Positions 1 to 21,562 of a DNA stretch of 21,947 bases are shown one piece after another. Below the pieces are notes generated by a model. The model did no database searches. It was not told the DNA's origin and saw only the letters and a list, made by a program, of their open reading frames with translations. The stretch lies in the IMG/VR virus record IMGVR_UViG_3300036861_000758, positions 1-21,947 of that record, one strand, 5' to 3'. Every line of letters begins with the position of its first letter. Position 1 is the stretch's first letter. A program made the translations under genes and the position numbers. The DNA comes from a virus.

Positions 1-357
1 CCCGGCCTTCACGACGTCGTCGACGGTGCCCGACTCCACGAGCCGCCGCCCCTCGGCCTGCACGCGGGCCGTGGCGGCGCTCAGCGCCTTCACCTGCGCT
101 TCGACCTTGGCGGCGGTGGCCCGCGCGCCGCTGATCGTCTCCTGGAGCCGCTGGCGGTCGAACTGCAGGATGCGGCGGTCCTCGATCGCGGACTCGCGGG
201 CGTGCTGAAGGTCGCCGAGCTTGGCGTCCTCGACGGCCTTCTTGACGCCGGCGACCTCGCGGCGCAGCGACGCCTTGTCCCACTCGCTGATCCCGACGTA
301 GAGGAGGGCGATCAGGGCCATATAGGTCCACGGGGAGCGGAGGAGGCGGGCGATCAC
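1..357 (-). CDS. Rz-like inner-membrane spanin candidate (3' end outside window)
   Basis: The reading frame is open from a GTG at 357 to the window edge (119 codons). The N-terminus has a short basic stretch and one hydrophobic segment (about residues 12-23, TYMALIALLYVG). A long charged region without prolines follows, rich in Ala, Arg, Glu and Gln, as expected for a periplasmic coiled coil. This N-in, one-membrane-pass plus coiled-coil layout is typical of phage i-spanins, which link inner and outer membranes in the last step of lysis. The start overlaps the upstream stop as GTGA. The position at the end of a run of small membrane genes fits a lysis role. Seen: topology and overlap. Inferred: spanin function. 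It could also be another membrane-anchored coiled-coil protein. Confidence 0.6.
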   Translation of the reverse strand, partial: MIARLLRSPWTYMALIALLYVGISEWDKASLRREVAGVKKAVEDAKLGDLQHARESAIEDRRILQFDRQRLQETISGARATAAKVEAQVKALSAATARVQAEGRRLVESGTVDDVVKAG

Positions 358-665
358 TTCTCTCGGCCTGCGTTCGGCCAAGCGCGCATGAGCCAGAAGA
401 ACGCGCGCACGACGCGGCCCCGCCAGCCGTCGGCCACGCCGATCTGCTCGTAGCGCAGGAGGTCGGGGCAGAGGGCGGCGGGGGTCGAGGTGGCGACCTT
501 CCACGGCGTGAACACCCCGCACATCACGAGAGCGGAGTGCCATGCCCGGCACCGTCCACAGAACACTGGCGGCGGAATCTCGAAGGTTGGAAGCCTCAAG
601 GTGTCGCCGTCCTCGTCGATGCGATACCAAACGATCGGCGGCCCATCGACGTCGAACCCACCCAT
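354..665 (-). CDS. Small Cys-containing protein of unknown function
   Basis: This encodes 103 aa starting MGGFDVDGPP. The ATG at 665 overlaps the upstream stop as TGATG, and a GGGGAGG ribosome binding sequence lies a few bases upstream. The middle holds CGRC, a further Cys about ten residues later and another near residue 64, so a metal-binding ribbon is possible. The C-terminal part is basic and aromatic (VVRAFFWLMRAW) and may touch membrane. I do not recognise the family. The start is chosen by the overlap and binding site rather than a longer in-frame upstream extension, which would run antisense-like through two other supported genes. Function unknown. Confidence 0.65.
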   Translation of the reverse strand: MGGFDVDGPPIVWYRIDEDGDTLRLPTFEIPPPVFCGRCRAWHSALVMCGVFTPWKVATSTPAALCPDLLRYEQIGVADGWRGRVVRAFFWLMRAWPNAGREK

Positions 666-784
666 CACGTCCTCCCCGAGAGCTTCTCGACGCACCACGC
701 GATGGCCTCGACGAGTCTCCGGCCGTTCTGGATGAGGACCACGCCCGCGAGGACGAGCGTGATGGCGAGGTGTAGGGAGATCAT
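665..784 (-). CDS. Tiny single-pass membrane protein
   Basis: This 39-aa product is one hydrophobic helix (about residues 4-18, LHLAITLVLAGVVLI) followed by an amphipathic tail with several Arg and Lys. The ATG at 784 overlaps the stop of the preceding gene as ATGA, and its own stop overlaps the next start as TGATG, which strongly supports real translation. It is too short to match a family by eye. In a phage lysis region a one-helix protein of this size could be a pinholin, an antiholin or a membrane regulator, but nothing in the sequence separates these. Confidence 0.6.
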   Translation of the reverse strand: MISLHLAITLVLAGVVLIQNGRRLVEAIAWCVEKLSGRT

Positions 785-1053
785 CGCGGGAACTCCCCGC
801 CGGTCTGGCGCAGGAGCGCGGCGCGCCACGACTCGGCCGTCTCGCCGCCGCTCTCCATGCTCGCCACGATCGACGCCCACTCGTTCGGTGGGACCGTGAC
901 GTCGAGGACCGGCGTGGCGCCCTCGTGATTCTCGGTGTACCTGCGGACCTGTACGGCGCCGCCATCGCGGCGCGTGAAGTAGAGACCGTCCGACCAGTGG
1001 AAGCCACCACCGTCGGGCCACGTCGTCTCCGTTCCAGGAAGTCTCTTCATCAT
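781..1053 (-). CDS. Hypothetical phage protein, about 90 aa
   Basis: The reading frame begins at tandem ATGs (1053 and 1050), overlaps the upstream stop as ATGATG, and ends in an ATGA overlap with the next gene. The product is soluble. The N-terminal half is rich in Gly, Trp and Tyr (GGGFHWSDGLYFTRRDGG) and looks like a short beta-sheet domain. The C-terminal half looks helical (EWASIVASME), ending near TGGEFPR. I recall similar small proteins in phage genomes but no assigned activity. No catalytic or metal-binding motif is visible. Confidence 0.65.
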   Translation of the reverse strand: MMKRLPGTETTWPDGGGFHWSDGLYFTRRDGGAVQVRRYTENHEGATPVLDVTVPPNEWASIVASMESGGETAESWRAALLRQTGGEFPR

Positions 1054-1307
1054 GGTTTCGCTCCTTCCGGCGCCGGGGCGCCGTTGCCTTGCCCGTAGCG
1101 CAGCCCCAGGAACTTCGCGGCCAGGGCGGGCGTGGTGATCATGGCGAGGGCGATCGCGTAGCCCAAGAAGTCATCGAAGCCGAGCGGCCGGGCCCACGCT
1201 TGCTTGAGGAAGCCGGCGGAGATCACGAGGCCGCCGACGTTGCCCCAGGTCTTCGCCAGGTCCATGTGACCGGCCGGCGGCGCGGAGAAGAGATCGGCGA
1301 GCTTCAC
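1050..1307 (-). CDS. Two-segment small membrane protein, possible holin
   Basis: This encodes 85 aa from a GTG at 1307 that overlaps the previous stop as GTGA. There are two hydrophobic stretches: a weaker one around residues 25-35 (GGLVISAGFL) and a stronger one around residues 48-69 (LGYAIALAMITTPALAAKFLGL). The tail is short, Gly/Pro-rich and charged. Two membrane segments in under 100 residues within a lysis-type cluster fit a class II holin, which forms the inner-membrane lesion. That is an inference from size, topology and place; I do not recognise a holin family motif. A later ATG (MDLAKTWG, residue 15) is an alternative start. Confidence 0.55.
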   Translation of the reverse strand: MKLADLFSAPPAGHMDLAKTWGNVGGLVISAGFLKQAWARPLGFDDFLGYAIALAMITTPALAAKFLGLRYGQGNGAPAPEGAKP

Positions 1308-1531
1308 GTAATGAGCGCCTGCATCTTGCGACACGTCTCCGGGTCCACGTCCGCCCCGCCGCTGAGGTAGCTCGACGGCCCGGCCAGCGCGTCGTCCGCG
1401 CCCTCCGGCTTGGGCTGGTGATACTCGCAGTAGCGGACGTCGAGGATCTCGCGCGTGGGGTCCGCGTCGGGCTCGCACGCGGGGCAGAACACGCGGCCGA
1501 GCATGGGCGTGTCGGGGATGAACTCGCTCAC
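1304..1531 (-). CDS. Small zinc-ribbon-like protein
   Basis: This encodes 75 aa starting at GTG 1531 (MSEFIPDTP), overlapping the stop of the lipoprotein gene as GTGA. Residues about 16-19 are CPAC and about 35-38 are CEYH, giving a CxxC plus CxxH set that could hold one zinc ion. The rest is acidic and probably flexible. No family is recognised. It is one of several short Cys-pair proteins in this cluster. The upstream in-frame extension lacks a good start and overlaps a supported gene, so the short version is preferred. Confidence 0.6.
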   Translation of the reverse strand: MSEFIPDTPMLGRVFCPACEPDADPTREILDVRYCEYHQPKPEGADDALAGPSSYLSGGADVDPETCRKMQALIT

Positions 1532-1671
1532 CGCGGCACCTCGTTGGGCGCGCAGACGATGATCGTGAGGCCATCCCGCGTCTCTGGGGCACGGCAGTAG
1601 TAGACGGGCGCGGCGCAGCCGGCGAGCAGGAGGAAGAGGACGATCCCGAGGAGGATCAGCGCGGCGGCCAT
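1528..1671 (-). CDS. Short lipoprotein, Rz1-like outer-membrane spanin candidate
   Basis: A 47-aa product begins with a strongly hydrophobic helix that ends in the lipobox LLAGC (Cys at residue 19), the signal for lipidation and signal peptidase II cleavage. The mature part would be only about 29 residues, with several prolines and two further cysteines. Small lipoproteins of this kind in phage lysis regions are usually o-spanins. The gene starts inside the end of the preceding gene (16-base overlap) and ends in a GTGA overlap with the next. A GTG two codons upstream is an alternative start. It is not adjacent to or nested in the Rz-like gene at the window edge, which is unusual for a pair. 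Confidence 0.6.
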   Translation of the reverse strand: MAAALILLGIVLFLLLAGCAAPVYYCRAPETRDGLTIIVCAPNEVPR

Positions 1672-1778
1672 TGCCACATGTCGATCCGCCGCCGCGTGCG
1701 GCGATCAGCGAAGTCCACGCCGAGGCCCCAGGCCAGGCCGAGGAGCACGAGGACGGCCGCCGCACCGGCGAGCTTCAT
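1656..1778 (-). CDS. 40-aa single-pass membrane protein
   Basis: The product starts MKLAGAAAVLVLLGLAWGLG, a hydrophobic helix, and continues with a basic segment (DRRTRRRID) and a Trp-rich end. The ATG at 1778 overlaps the previous stop as ATGA. Basic residues following the helix favour an orientation with the C-terminus inside the cell, although the helix could also be an uncleaved signal. No family can be assigned. It is supported mainly by its place in the gapless gene train and by its clear hydrophobic helix. Confidence 0.55.
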   Translation of the reverse strand: MKLAGAAAVLVLLGLAWGLGVDFADRRTRRRIDMWQWPPR

Positions 1779-1975
1779 TCCCGGTCCTCGCATTTCACGG
1801 TGATCGTAGCGACGTTGAGATTCTGATCCGTCTCGACTTTCGTCACGATGCGCGCCGTGGGACACTCGCCCAACGTCGCCAGGGCGAACCGCAGCACGGC
1901 CAGCGTCTCCCCCGTCAGCGCCGAGGGGACGATCGCGGACAGCGTGATGGCGAGCAGGAGCGCGCGGCATCTCAT
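1775..1975 (-). CDS. Small exported protein with signal-like N-terminus
   Basis: This encodes 66 aa starting MRCRALLLAITLSAIV, with a positively charged tip, a hydrophobic core and small residues near SALTG that could form a signal peptidase I site. The remaining part has two cysteines about 25 residues apart, which could form a disulphide in the periplasm, and alternating hydrophobic residues typical of beta strands (VATITVKC). The start overlaps the upstream stop as ATGA and the stop overlaps the next start as ATGA. Unknown function. A longer start at 2065 is possible but would run through the supported zinc-ribbon gene. Confidence 0.6.
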   Translation of the reverse strand: MRCRALLLAITLSAIVPSALTGETLAVLRFALATLGECPTARIVTKVETDQNLNVATITVKCEDRE

Positions 1976-2165: not shown

Positions 2166-2236
2166 TGCGCCACCGCGGCCGCGACGACGACTGGGTGGTA
2201 CTCCATGAACGTCAGCGCGGCGTCGAGGAGGGTCAT
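2162..2236 (-). CDS. 24-aa hydrophobic peptide
   Basis: The frame MTLLDAALTFMEYHPVVVAA ends four residues later. It lies between the YkuD-like gene and a zinc-ribbon gene, with ATGA overlaps at both ends. These overlaps are the main support, since at this size coding cannot be judged by composition. The peptide is mildly amphipathic and hydrophobic. It may be a real micro-protein or a short reading frame whose main job is to pass ribosomes to the next gene. Confidence 0.4.
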   Translation of the reverse strand: MTLLDAALTFMEYHPVVVAAAVAQ

Positions 2237-2694
2237 ACGTCGGCCACCTCGAAGAACACGGTTCGCCCCGCCGCCAGCGCCGCCGTCACCAGCGGCTCGC
2301 AGGCCCGCGCCATGTCGTTGTCGATCCGCAGACAGCCGAAGGTCGCCCGGAGCGAGCCATCCGTCATCGGAAGGCCACCGTGCATCCCCATCCCGTCGCG
2401 GCCGCGACGCTGCCCGTCGAGCGCGTCGCCGGCGATCGCCTGGAGTCGGAAGAAGGCCGGCCCGAAGTGCGCCGGGTCCTTGTGCTCGACGCTGATGATC
2501 TTGGAGAGGCCCGACGGATGATCGCCGAAGGGCGCCTCCGAATCGCGCGACGGGTTGCCGTGCTTGCCCGCCTCCGCGCTGTCCGCTTTGCCGCGGCAGC
2601 GGAACGGACCGAGCAGGAGGCTGCCCTCGTCGTCGAAGAGCTCGACCTCGCCGGGTTGCGTGCGATCGGTGGGGAGGCGAACGTAGAACCTCAC
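2233..2694 (-). CDS. YkuD-fold (L,D-transpeptidase-like) protein, candidate lysis enzyme
   Basis: This encodes 153 aa from a GTG at 2694 that overlaps the previous stop as GTGA. The C-terminal half carries HGG (His105) followed 16 residues later by FGCLRID (Cys121), matching the His and catalytic Cys of the L,D-transpeptidase/YkuD and related Tlde1 (DUF2778) families. Those enzymes act on peptidoglycan peptides through a Cys thioester. The usual His in SHGC is Phe here, as can happen in divergent members. A proline-glycine region (residues 54-62, APFGDHPSG) fits the loop before the active site. There is no signal peptide, so export would need a holin or it acts from the virion. Placed among small membrane genes, it is the best candidate for the phage endolysin. 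The fold is a motif-based judgement; the lytic role is inferred. Confidence 0.6.
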   Translation of the reverse strand: MRFYVRLPTDRTQPGEVELFDDEGSLLLGPFRCRGKADSAEAGKHGNPSRDSEAPFGDHPSGLSKIISVEHKDPAHFGPAFFRLQAIAGDALDGQRRGRDGMGMHGGLPMTDGSLRATFGCLRIDNDMARACEPLVTAALAAGRTVFFEVADV

Positions 2695-3173
2695 CGCCGC
2701 GCCTCCATCTCGAGGATCAGCTGCGGCCGCGACAGCTTGATCCTCGTGCGCTCCGCCTCCGGCAGCGTGGCGACGTAGACGAGGGCGCGGATGCCTTCGA
2801 GGATCGCTGTGTGCTCAGTGCTCATCTGCACGGTCTGGTGGGCGCGCGCGGCGGCCGCGTCCTGGATGGACTTCAGGCGCTCCACCTCGCGCGCGTCGAG
2901 CTTGACGAAGCCCTGGTGCACGACGTACCCGACACTGGCGATCGACGTGAGCCCGAGCACCAGGATCAGGCTCACGAGCCCCAGCGTGCCCCGCCAGGTG
3001 TAGGACATGCCCAGCGCCCGCACCGTGCCGCCGCCCTCGCCCGCGCTCTCGTCCGGCAGCATCGGCTCTCCCCCTTGGCGCCGCCGCAGATCCGCGCGCG
3101 CCAGCAACGCCTGGTCAATCGTCGCCCGCTCGTGGCGCAGCTGGTCGTCGCTCATGTCGCGGAAGCGGGTCAT
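2691..3173 (-). CDS. Membrane-anchored coiled-coil protein
   Basis: A 160-aa product starts MTRFRDMSDDQLRHERATID. Residues 1-55 are charged and mostly helical (QLRHERATIDQALLARADL). One membrane helix follows at about residues 65-86 (LGLVSLILVLGLTSIASVGY). The rest is a predicted helical or coiled segment rich in Glu, Gln and Arg. The ATG at 3173 begins two bases after the previous stop. Phage genes with a cytoplasmic domain, one helix and an outer coil near the lysis enzyme are sometimes spanin- or holin-associated. No family motif was recognised, so this is described by topology only. Confidence 0.6.
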   Translation of the reverse strand: MTRFRDMSDDQLRHERATIDQALLARADLRRRQGGEPMLPDESAGEGGGTVRALGMSYTWRGTLGLVSLILVLGLTSIASVGYVVHQGFVKLDAREVERLKSIQDAAAARAHQTVQMSTEHTAILEGIRALVYVATLPEAERTRIKLSRPQLILEMEARR

Positions 3174-12383: not shown

Positions 12384-12890
12384 TTAGACCGTCGTCCCGA
12401 TGATGACGATGTCGTAGGTGACCGACGTTCCGCCGCCCCCGTTCGCGACCTTGAGCAGATCGGCGGTGGCCGCGGTGATGCCGTAGGCGACGACATCCGG
12501 CGCCACCAGGATCAGGAGGCCACCCGGCCGCACCTTGACCTTGTCGGTCGGATCGCCGAACGGTGTCACGAGTGCATTCGCCGCGGCGCCACCGACCACG
12601 ACGTCGTTGACGTTCGCGGGATCGGCGTAGATGAGCAGCACCTTCATCCGGGCCAGCGTGATCACGTCGCCGAAGGCATCCGTGAGCCCGCCGGCCAGGT
12701 CGTGCTCCTCGGAGTCGCTGGCGACGAGCGTGCGGCGGTCGTGGAAGATCTTGTCCGCCTCGTCGGCATCGGTCCCGTTCGCGAGCCGGATCTCCTTCAC
12801 GAAGCGGAGGACCGACTCCGGGATGTTGAGGTCGAGCGCCTTCGTCAGCGTCGCGCCCAGCGTGAGCAGAATCTCGGTGTCGAGCGGCAT
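12384..12890 (-). CDS. Tail-region virion protein of unknown role, 168 aa
   Basis: The ATG at 12890 follows an AGGGAGG ribosome binding sequence. The N-terminal third is helical (LTLGATLTKALDLN, ESVLRFVKEIRLAN). The middle contains acidic and Asp-rich regions (NGTDADEADKIFHDRR). The end is strand-like (GGGTSVTYDIVIIGTTV). The product appears soluble and structural. It is located between the tail tube gene and the chaperone pair, a place where some siphoviruses carry a tail tube-associated protein. I recall similar phage proteins but not a defined function. Confidence 0.6.
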   Translation of the reverse strand: MPLDTEILLTLGATLTKALDLNIPESVLRFVKEIRLANGTDADEADKIFHDRRTLVASDSEEHDLAGGLTDAFGDVITLARMKVLLIYADPANVNDVVVGGAAANALVTPFGDPTDKVKVRPGGLLILVAPDVVAYGITAATADLLKVANGGGGTSVTYDIVIIGTTV

Positions 12891-14393: not shown

Positions 14394-14704
14394 CAGCGCA
14401 CCAGCACCTTCGTCACCTCGGCATCCTGTGTGAGCACGCTGTCCACGATGTAGCTGCCGGCATCCGCGCCCTCGAGCAGCACGATCACCGTCCCGCTCGG
14501 TGTCGTCGGGACCTCGTCCCGCCGAACAGCCAGCACCCGGTGGTGTTCCGTGACCGTGAGCTCGCCGCCCGCCGGGTACTCCGCATCCCCGCCCGCGAGC
14601 GCGATGACTGTCGTGGCGATCGGTGCGCCGCCGGGCGGCGTTACCGTCGCGGCAACGCCGAAGGCCCGGAGGAGCGGCGCCAGCGACGGTCGGAGATCGG
14701 CCAT
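14393..14704 (-). CDS. Head-tail joining protein-like
   Basis: A 103-aa product starts MADLRPSLAPLLRAFGVAAT, with an alternative GTG one codon upstream at 14707. An N-terminal helix is followed by a compact beta barrel-like pattern (GELTVTEHHRVLAVRRDEV, GTVIVLLEGADAGSYIVDSV), like the lambda gpFII family of head-tail attachment proteins. It is the first minus-strand gene after the major capsid gene, but the two are separated by an opposing plus-strand homing endonuclease-like gene. The start lies only 20 bases from the start of that gene on the other strand. The short stop overlap with the next gene suggests coupling. Confidence 0.65.
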   Translation of the reverse strand: MADLRPSLAPLLRAFGVAATVTPPGGAPIATTVIALAGGDAEYPAGGELTVTEHHRVLAVRRDEVPTTPSGTVIVLLEGADAGSYIVDSVLTQDAEVTKVLVR

Positions 14705-14724
14705 CACGCCGCCACCGCGGTAGA

Positions 14725-15360
14725 ATGGTCGGCGTGGCGCCCCCCATCCTCGATCTCACCGGCCAGCGATTCGGCCGTCTCATCGCCTTCGAACTGGCTC
14801 CGGAGCGCACGAGCAACGGCAAGGCGCGATGGATATGCCGCTGCGACTGCGGAGCGGGCACCACGGTGGATGCCCGGAACCTCCGGAGCGGCTCGACGCT
14901 CTCGTGTGGTTGCCATCGCCGCGCGATCGGTGAGCGGACGCTCACTCACGGCCGGACGAATACACCGGAGTTTCGGGCGTGGACTCAGATGCTGTACCGC
15001 TGCCTGAACGTTCGGTGCGCTCACTACCGGCACTACGGCGGGCGTGGCATCACGGTCTGCGCGCGCTGGATGGCGAGCTTCGAGAACTTCCTGGCCGACG
15101 TGGGCGAGCGCCCGTCGGCCGACTATTCCCTCGATCGCAAGGACAACGACGGCCCATACGCGCCCGGCAATGTGCGGTGGGCGACGCCGACCCAGCAGGC
15201 GAACAATCGGAGGGTCAATCATCGACTGACCTACGACGGCAAGACGATGACGATCAGTGAATGGGCGGCGCACATCGGCATCAGCCGCGAGAGCCTTCGC
15301 GGGCGCCTGAAGCTCGGATGGTCCGTCGAGGAGGCCGTGACGGCCTCCGCATCGAAGTAG
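14725..15360 (+). CDS. HNH/AP2-type homing endonuclease-like protein
   Basis: This is the only supported plus-strand gene. It encodes 211 aa from ATG 14725. Features in order: LTGQRFGRL near the start, a zinc site with CRCDC (38-42) and SCGC (60-63), THGRTNTPEF with Trp at about 86, then HYGGRGITVC (103-112), an HNH-like core with SLDRKDNDG (135-143), then PGNVRWAT (147-154) and QQANNRR (157-163). The C-terminus (ISEWAAHIGISRESLRGRLK) looks like a DNA-binding helix-turn-helix of the NUMOD type. The first His of classic HNH is not at the usual place, but I recall the same variation in this phage family. Such genes are mobile and cut DNA to copy themselves. It is placed tail to tail with the capsid gene and head to head with the joining gene. 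Confidence 0.8.
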   Translation: MVGVAPPILDLTGQRFGRLIAFELAPERTSNGKARWICRCDCGAGTTVDARNLRSGSTLSCGCHRRAIGERTLTHGRTNTPEFRAWTQMLYRCLNVRCAHYRHYGGRGITVCARWMASFENFLADVGERPSADYSLDRKDNDGPYAPGNVRWATPTQQANNRRVNHRLTYDGKTMTISEWAAHIGISRESLRGRLKLGWSVEEAVTASASK

Positions 15361-18916: not shown

Positions 18917-19135
18917 CTATTTCGCGCGTTCGGCGATGATGCGCTGGACGTCGTCGACGCTCAGCACGCGCTTCCGAAATCGTAGGCGGCCGACCCGGTC
19001 GTACCGCGCCGGCGCCAGCTCGGGATGCCGCCAGAGGTAGAGTCGAAGCTGGGCGGCCGTCATGCCGATGAGCGGCGCCGCCTCCTCGAGCGTGTAGCCG
19101 TTGCCGGCGGGCGCCTCCGTGGCCAGCATGTTCAT
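18917..19135 (-). CDS. Small MerR/excisionase-like DNA-binding protein
   Basis: A 72-aa product starts MNMLATEAPAGNG. Residues 15-70 (YTLEEAAPLIGMTAAQLRLY, then RVGRLRFRKRVLSVDDVQRI) follow the winged-helix pattern of MerR and excisionase-type proteins: a helix-turn-helix, a basic wing and a final helix. It could bind DNA as a regulator. The ATG at 19135 overlaps the stop of the repeat-protein gene as ATGA, so the two are probably co-translated. The gene ends just before the gap that holds the TGAAACAGAC sites, which makes these a plausible target. A regulator inside a virion gene block is unusual. Confidence 0.7.
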   Translation of the reverse strand: MNMLATEAPAGNGYTLEEAAPLIGMTAAQLRLYLWRHPELAPARYDRVGRLRFRKRVLSVDDVQRIIAERAK

Positions 19136-19869
19136 ACGAGCTCAAGCTCCAGGTCGTCGTCGACCAGGCCGAGCAGTCGAAGATCGTCGTCCGGGAACGT
19201 GAGGAGGACGGTGGGCGTGCCGATCGCCTCCGACGCGCTGATGCCCTCCGGCGTGGTAATGCGGCGCCGGCGGATCGGACGGATCGGGAAGCTCGGCGTC
19301 GTGATGGACCAGCCGCCGGCGGGCACGGCGGGAGGAGCGAAGACGGTCAGCGTGGCCACCCCGAGGGCCTCTTCGCTGGCGATGCCGAGTGGCCTGATCG
19401 CCGGCTCGATCGAGATCGCGACGGCGCCGAACATCTCGCCGGACGCGATGCCGCCCGGCGTAAGGGCCAAAGCCACCACGGGCGTCCCGAACTCGTCGCC
19501 CGCGATCGCCGCGACCGCCACGACCAGCGTGAGGGCAACGGCCGGGACGGCCTCGGCCGACGCGATGCCGGCGCACTGCACGACCACCGGCACGGCCGGT
19601 GCGCCGAACGCCTCCGCGGACGCGATCGAGCCAGGACCGAGGATCTCCGTCGCGGTGGCGCTTCCGAAGGCCTCGGCGCTCGCGATGCCGGAGGGTCCGG
19701 CTGTGAGGTCGATCCGCGCCGAGCCGAACGCCTCCACGCTCGTGATGCCAGACGGCGCGGCGGCGAGGTTGACCTGCGCCGCGCCGAAGGCCTCGACGGT
19801 GGCGATCGCGCCGGCGCCGGTAATCGTCTGGGATGCCGCGGAACTACGGAAGAGGACGGGAAGGCCCAC
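19132..19869 (-). CDS. Protein built from 20-residue GIASxEAFG repeats
   Basis: A 245-aa product starts at GTG 19869, four bases after the previous stop. After 20 residues, about nine repeat units follow with consensus GIASAEAFGxAxVxLxxxPx. Units 1-5 are exactly 20 residues; unit 6 is 19 and unit 7 is 22; two degenerate units are separated by a basic Pro-rich part (PSFPIRPIRRRRI). The protein ends in an acidic tail (DDDLRLLGLVDDDLELELV). Regular short repeats with small residues and alternating hydrophobics suggest a beta-solenoid or stacked-strand rod, as in fibres or surface proteins. I recall this repeat from uncharacterised phage proteins but know no function. The genes around it look like virion genes, so a capsid fibre or accessory structural role is possible. 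Confidence 0.7.
   Translation of the reverse strand: MGLPVLFRSSAASQTITGAGAIATVEAFGAAQVNLAAAPSGITSVEAFGSARIDLTAGPSGIASAEAFGSATATEILGPGSIASAEAFGAPAVPVVVQCAGIASAEAVPAVALTLVVAVAAIAGDEFGTPVVALALTPGGIASGEMFGAVAISIEPAIRPLGIASEEALGVATLTVFAPPAVPAGGWSITTPSFPIRPIRRRRITTPEGISASEAIGTPTVLLTFPDDDLRLLGLVDDDLELELV
19387..19809 (-). repeat. Tandem coding repeat of 60-bp units
   Basis: Repeat units start at 19809, 19749, 19689, 19629, 19569, 19509 and 19452 on the minus strand, with further degenerate copies from 19386. The first five are exactly 60 bp. The DNA copies differ at many positions while the GIASxEAFG core is kept, indicating an old duplication under protein-level selection rather than a recent expansion. 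Confidence 0.7.
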
Positions 19870-21097: not shown

Positions 21098-21562
21098 CTA
21101 GGCAGCCCTGAGACGGGCGCGGTGTTCTCGCATGCGACGGGCGCCGCACGCGCGACAGCGGCGACGACCATCGCGCAACTGGACGTTGCTGCCGGTCAGC
21201 GGGTGGCCGTGAGCACATGCCGGTCGGCGATGGTTCGGCGCCGGCACCGAGCGCCAAATACGTAAGACCTCACGGGCGCGTTCGCGGCGGCGGGCGCACA
21301 GGAACGGCCAGAGCGTCATGAGTAGCCCGGCCGCATCGGCCGAGTCCTGCACGATCCAGACGTAGACCGCCTTGCCCGCGACTGTCGGACGGCGCAACTG
21401 GTAGGATCGCCCACAGCCTGTCGCCTCCACCAGGCGCGCCGTCACATCGCGATCCGTGATGCTGACGCGCAACTCGGGTACACGGCGTCGTTTGAGCCCG
21501 ATCCAGCCCTCGCCCTCGATGAGTCCTGCCGCCCACGCGAGCCCGATGCTGTTCGTCATCAT
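21098..21562 (-). CDS. LAGLIDADG homing endonuclease-like protein with C-terminal zinc finger
   Basis: A 154-aa product starts MMTNSIGLAWAAGLIEGEGW. The motif AAGLIEGEG (residues 11-19) matches the LAGLIDADG signature, with an acidic residue near its end, as in single-motif enzymes that act as dimers. The C-terminus holds CAHGH followed by CRAC, a zinc-finger pattern I recall in phage nucleases and DNA-binding proteins, with a basic end (RRMREHRARLRAA). ATG 21562 shares a base with the previous stop (TGATG); the tandem ATG at 21559 is an alternative. The gene is in the same direction as virion genes and coupled to them, unlike the plus-strand HNH gene. Activity on DNA is inferred from the motif. 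Confidence 0.75.
   Translation of the reverse strand: MMTNSIGLAWAAGLIEGEGWIGLKRRRVPELRVSITDRDVTARLVEATGCGRSYQLRRPTVAGKAVYVWIVQDSADAAGLLMTLWPFLCARRRERAREVLRIWRSVPAPNHRRPACAHGHPLTGSNVQLRDGRRRCRACGARRMREHRARLRAA

Follow-up and report, generated by a model that had tools for sequence, protein, structure and literature searches.

How does this phage open the wall of its host? Where an endolysin would be expected, it carries the gene of a small protein with a predicted YkuD fold, which bacteria use for the L,D cross-linking of their own wall. To our knowledge, the folds with which the endolysins known so far cut are those of glycosidases, amidases, and a small number of peptidases. Is this protein one more kind of endolysin, or does it do something else to the wall?

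The window, i.e., the whole stretch of DNA that was analyzed, is an entire IMG/VR record of 21,947 bases from a soil-type phage; the record is linear, and thus a fragment. On the minus strand, head genes, among them those of a ClpP-like protease and a PF03864 major capsid protein, are followed by the connector, the tail tube, the tail assembly chaperone, long tail proteins, and finally, at the low-coordinate end, a series of small genes. The end of the window cuts inside the last of the features in Table 1, an Rz-like spanin gene.

Other parts of the fragment hold curiosities of their own. An opposite-strand ORF (14623-15360, +), with the capsid gene on one side and a head-closure gene on the other, resembles a free-standing HNH-type homing endonuclease and has no Pfam match. 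A GLIEGEGWIG...-like frame that adjoins a structural gene (21098-21540, -) is LAGLIDADG homing endonuclease-like, and the head region encodes a repetitive protein of 245 aa with a repeated GIASAEAFG-like unit (19132-19869, -). The product of 12384-12890 (-) matches phrog_22694 (E 9e-58), of unknown function, and is common to 40 viral contigs and to phages of Streptomyces, Micromonospora, Microcystis, and Bradyrhizobium, genomes that mostly share no other genes. The 40 loci reached via this protein are without YkuD and have at most a short tail segment in common. Three of them have an Amidase_2 gene 8-10 kb downstream of the gene of this protein, about as far away as the YkuD gene is in the window, but the synteny is too thin for Amidase_2 to be regarded as its replacement there.

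Table 1. Features at the low-coordinate end of the window
Feature	Position	Strand	Remarks
YkuD/L,D-transpeptidase-fold protein, 153 aa	2233..2694	-	Predicted catalytic pair His105/Cys121; residue at Cys+2 is Arg123; lacks a signal peptide
Shine-Dalgarno-like GGAGG	2702..2706	-	7 nt before the GTG start; read from the sequence
160-aa one-TM protein, possible lysis regulator or holin-like	2691..3173	-	Translationally coupled to the YkuD gene; no confident family
Small exported protein	1775..1975	-	Hydrophobic N-terminus; called as 1775-2005, the internal ATG at 1975 being the cleaner signal-like start
40-aa one-TM peptide	1656..1778	-	TM prediction
47-aa putative lipoprotein	1528..1671	-	Lipobox LLAGC; o-spanin-like by size and place
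85-aa membrane protein, holin candidate	1050..1307	-	phrog_1322 "membrane protein", E 9e-6; TM 51-69
39-aa one-TM peptide	665..784	-	TM prediction
Rz-like i-spanin candidate	1..357	-	phrog_312, E 0.006, residues 4-106; cut by the contig end

The GTG start of the YkuD ORF and the TGA stop of the gene before it overlap (GTGA). The initial annotation had drawn attention to HGG and FGCLR, in the right order and spacing, and to the lack of a signal peptide, and both observations are borne out. The residues H105-G-G and T118-F-G-C121-L-R lie in a segment, M102 to I124, that fits the published YkuD signature, phiGphiHG(S/T)-X10-(S/T)XGCphiR(M/L) (PMC12729407), with an exact X10 spacing; the departures, G107 for S/T and I124 for M/L, are conservative. 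The motif, back-translated in degenerate form, has one match in the window and none in 100 shuffles. As for the N-terminus, it is not hydrophobic, and no signal peptide was found.

To which family does such a protein belong? Taken alone, it matches no PDB chain and none of the families in Pfam, PHROG, or NCBIfam. Its connection to PF03734, the family proposed for it at first, is transitive: the profile does not match the window protein itself at E<=1, and it matches the other eight of the nine aligned members, the best at 2e-9. Queries with the single sequence, a three-row alignment, or the long tail protein returned no relatives from viral contigs. With tblastn against plasmids, two weak leads were obtained, a Paenibacillus polymyxa protein, annotated as an L,D-transpeptidase and matching PF03734 at 2e-9, and a Rhizobium protein. 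Scanning with the DNA motif yielded 7 viral contigs, each with a true relative. When the scan was guided by the alignment, the number of viral loci rose to 38, those 7 included, corresponding to 17 sequences at 80% identity and 16 at 60%. The members are all stand-alone proteins of about 150-165 aa and have a family-specific segment, ADN..A...GNP.RD....GD.P.G. Six residues (H105, G107, T118, G120, C121, and R123) are invariant in the 17 non-redundant sequences, a count to be read knowing that the search patterns themselves demanded R123 and some of the motif. Against a profile of the 17 phage relatives, with the window left out, the window protein scores 155 bits (E 1e-46 among 2,000 shuffles); judged by this comparison of sequences, its similarity to the family is far beyond chance.

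Two members of this wider circle deserve a word. On the Rhizobium plasmid pRlX1 (L001, 1-12576), the YkuD relative is immediately preceded by a series of hypothetical genes of very great length, as long as 11 kb, and might serve a secretion or injection system as an effector. A freshwater-type group (L088, 9995-11556; L097; L104; L107) consists of many near-identical contigs that carry a PF05105 holin along with the YkuD gene, and these are the best candidates for a complete genome.

That the gene is an inactive or host-acquired relic is barely credible: the window copy has diverged enough to escape Pfam, but its frame is open, with a ribosome binding site and coupling, the catalytic residues are all kept, and conservation is family-wide.

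The predicted structure agrees with the initial assignment. An AlphaFold2 model built from the nine-row alignment (pLDDT 95.1, pTM 0.88) retrieves only YkuD-family enzymes in the top rows of Foldseek and VIA-align, with Z scores of 13.9 for Bd1075, 13.7 for Csd6, 13.5 for Pgp2, 11.2 for Tlde1a (7uma), and 10.6 for DpaA; for B. subtilis YkuD (1y7m), Z is 13.5 and the rmsd is 2.0 over 107 residues. When the family profile is compared with PDB sequences, His and Cys align gap-free with those of the L,D-transpeptidase 4lzh (E 8e-4). On the strength of the model, membership of the YkuD fold family is secure, and the catalytic pair predicted at the outset, His105/Cys121, is in place by motif and by alignment with solved L,D-transpeptidases.

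The next question is what kind of YkuD enzyme this might be. With the PF03734 enzymes (B. subtilis YkuD, LdtMt1/2), the protein has in common the fold, the His/Cys signature with its spacing, and the Arg at Cys+2. It differs from them in that it is phage-encoded, stand-alone, and devoid of a signal peptide or wall-binding domain, has the family-specific segment, and lies, by its own sequence, under Pfam detection. The best structural matches, Bd1075, Csd6, and Pgp2 (Z 13.4-13.9), are YkuD-fold L,D-carboxypeptidases. These have an NTF2 domain and, like DpaA, Ala or Val at Cys+2, whereas the window protein has Arg there, which is a feature of YkuD and the L,D-transpeptidases. Two residues before the His, it has Gly103 in place of the D-Ala pocket Trp158 of Csd6; Trp is found at this position in freshwater-group members and in the Paenibacillus homologue. 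Together, Arg123 and Gly103 point, as far as residues can tell, to a transpeptidase-type active site and not to that of a dedicated hydrolase. With markers that look like those of a transpeptidase, the label "Cys peptidase" given to the protein at first is unproven. Hydrolysis read from structural closeness to the carboxypeptidases was also considered and rejected, because their Z scores tie with that of YkuD, which permits no functional inference, and Arg123 points the opposite way.

A second idea raised at the outset, the Tlde1 branch, was not borne out. Tlde1 T6SS effectors (PF10908) have the YkuD fold and are toxic by acting on stems. However, at E<=10 the window protein has no match to PF10908, two of the nine relatives match it weakly at best (E about 0.06, below the cut-off), and the window has no T6SS or immunity gene, the neighbors being only phage structural and lysis-like genes. 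Membership of Tlde1 was rejected, and the protein was placed in another subfamily.

Does the gene keep the company of lysis genes? In the window, the small membrane and spanin-like neighbors that had been noted are there, namely, the 47-aa lipoprotein and the matches to phrog_1322 and phrog_312 (Table 1). In the interval that separates the YkuD gene from that of the exported protein (1972-2166, -), two tiny peptides are encoded that are rich in CxxC and zinc-ribbon-like; a further CxxC-rich peptide has 75 aa (1304-1531). For the relatives, gene contexts were obtained with a plus-strand-only gene caller. A PF05105 holin lies three genes downstream in L088, L104, and L107 (E 1e-24 to 1e-25). In G043, one- and two-TM proteins, one of them with a weak holin match (E 0.019), and a lipoprotein surround the YkuD gene, while in L073 it stands between two-TM proteins, and a gene for a TM plus coiled-coil protein overlaps that of an exported one. 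Over 18 representatives, 32 small TM genes were seen at most four genes away where 14.9 were expected (p about 2e-4), and the enrichment persists when related representatives are collapsed (p about 5e-4). A lysis-like setting, with small membrane proteins adjoining, occurs in roughly half of the lineages. Five others (L077, L079, L081, L083, and L084) have no small TM genes or lysis-like neighborhood, and in L085 and L087 the YkuD gene is among head genes or just before the terminase.

These contexts bear on two further explanations. The enzyme might modify the wall without lysing the cell, by forming 3-3 cross-links or swapping D-Ala4, for instance so that competing phages are kept out or the wall holds up to the moment of release. 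Arg123 and Gly103, being transpeptidase-type, are in line with such a role, as are L084 and L085, which carry the gene among DNA-metabolism or head genes, and the homologues of Paenibacillus and Rhizobium, both plasmid-borne and outside recognizable prophage. It is nonetheless improbable in view of the enrichment beside small membrane proteins and holins, and also because a protein with no signal peptide can get to the wall only once the membrane has been opened. The other explanation is a virion-associated enzyme that acts on the wall at DNA entry, as tail/fibre genes immediately precede the YkuD gene in the window and in G042 (L076), L077, and L105. This is very improbable for a small, stand-alone protein without a structural domain, the gene of which shows, in the window, translational coupling with that of a membrane protein and, in unrelated phages, stands beside holins.

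If the protein is used at lysis, does it work alone? No other muralytic motif had been noticed in the window. Searches in which the controls rang found none of PF00959, PF01510, PF13539, PF01464, and PF05257 there or in seven carrier contigs, one of which is 39 kb long and has the YkuD gene at its middle. PF00182 (GH19) had no match in the carriers either, with a control that was equally silent. When 115 genes from the window, G043, and G044 were compared with Pfam, no endolysin family was among the best 25 of 37 families, and a weak phmmer check detected no endolysin or glycosidase near any carrier. Since all the contigs are fragments, a further endolysin could be encoded beyond their ends, and these absences are suggestive only.

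Phages in which a YkuD domain has company are indeed on record. YkuD domains in phage lysis genes are already known, and rare: in PhaLP, they are a rare catalytic class of phage lytic domains, with 10 entries (PMC8310338). The new family differs from that class in coming from uncultivated phages, and three members used as tblastn query had no match in the named phage records (n=50,697). In cyanophages, S-CBS4 gp063, annotated as an endolysin, is a fusion of glucosaminidase and YkuD, B23 gp319 of a Synechococcus phage is a fusion of YkuD and a GH19-like domain, and in S-CRM01 gp112 (YkuD) comes after and overlaps the GH24 lysozyme gene. The latter phage is T4-like, its YkuD gene is annotated as hypothetical, and GH24 and YkuD (L007, 3153-4462) are there a natural two-enzyme lysis pair. 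The cyanophage proteins have YkuD in or beside lysis genes and the same conserved core as the new family; they differ in scoring only 28-39 bits against the family profile, and in them the glycosidase is accompanied, not replaced. The L,D-transpeptidase gp80 of cyanophage Mic1 is the product of a late gene, occurs with a muramidase and an endopeptidase, and has been suggested to serve lysis (PMC11237433). Among bacterial enzymes of the fold are transpeptidases and carboxypeptidases, and also endopeptidases, LdtCd2/3 of C. difficile; for typhoid toxin release, an L,D-transpeptidase edits the wall for a dedicated muramidase (PMC12729407). No characterized stand-alone YkuD endolysin was found in the open-access papers that were searched.

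These precedents, i.e., the cyanophage relatives that always come with a glycosidase, Mic1 gp80, and the transpeptidase-dependent toxin release, suit an accessory lysis enzyme, which would edit cross-links or trim stems beside a conventional or unrecognized glycosidase encoded outside the fragment; the window also ends before the module does. Such a role is rather unlikely, with the five common endolysin families missing from eight carrier contigs of 11-66 kb and no glycosidase near any carrier by the weak phmmer check.

The reading toward which we lean is that of a stand-alone YkuD-fold peptidoglycan enzyme, made late and used at lysis, most likely as the endolysin. It is the best one in view of the lysis-like setting, the holin, the missing conventional families, and the cyanophage fusions; these fusions and the recurring relatives support a lytic role. 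Of the endolysin proposal in the initial annotation, the fold, the His105/Cys121 pair, and the lysis-like surroundings stand, and the Tlde1 branch does not. What speaks against an endolysin are the transpeptidase-type markers, the several carriers without a lysis-like neighborhood, and the fact that the cyanophage domain accompanies a glycosidase.

How might such an enzyme break a wall? Expressed late, it would accumulate in the cytoplasm and depend on the holin, which would open the membrane and let it reach the periplasm. In the stem peptides, Cys121 would then attack residue 3 (mDAP) at the carbonyl of its L-centre and become acylated, and whatever is attached on the D-Ala4 side would be released. 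Where this D-Ala4 is part of a 4-3 cross-link, or where the partner is a 3-3 cross-link, hydrolysis of the acyl-enzyme would open the cross-link and the wall would fail, the spanins finishing lysis. With net hydrolysis sufficient for lysis, and cross-links opened in this way, the enzyme would count as an endolysin.

A bolder possibility can be put forward tentatively: in a widespread family of uncultivated phages, a single stand-alone enzyme of L,D-transpeptidase type may lyse the host with no lysozyme, amidase, or conventional endopeptidase, the wall possibly being weakened by transpeptidation or exchange at residue 3 and not by simple hydrolysis.

What looks new is a stand-alone, signal-less YkuD family in at least 16 uncultivated phage lineages, in the place expected of an endolysin. 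The gene, recurrent and so far unannotated in phages, now has a name, and the family is a new source of candidate wall enzymes with which it becomes possible to test directly if a transpeptidase is able to lyse a cell. If the endolysin reading is true, a chemistry would be added to those of lysis, perhaps with a step sensitive to carbapenems. With relatives in at least 16 other uncultivated lineages, a few phages may burst their hosts by an unusual wall chemistry.
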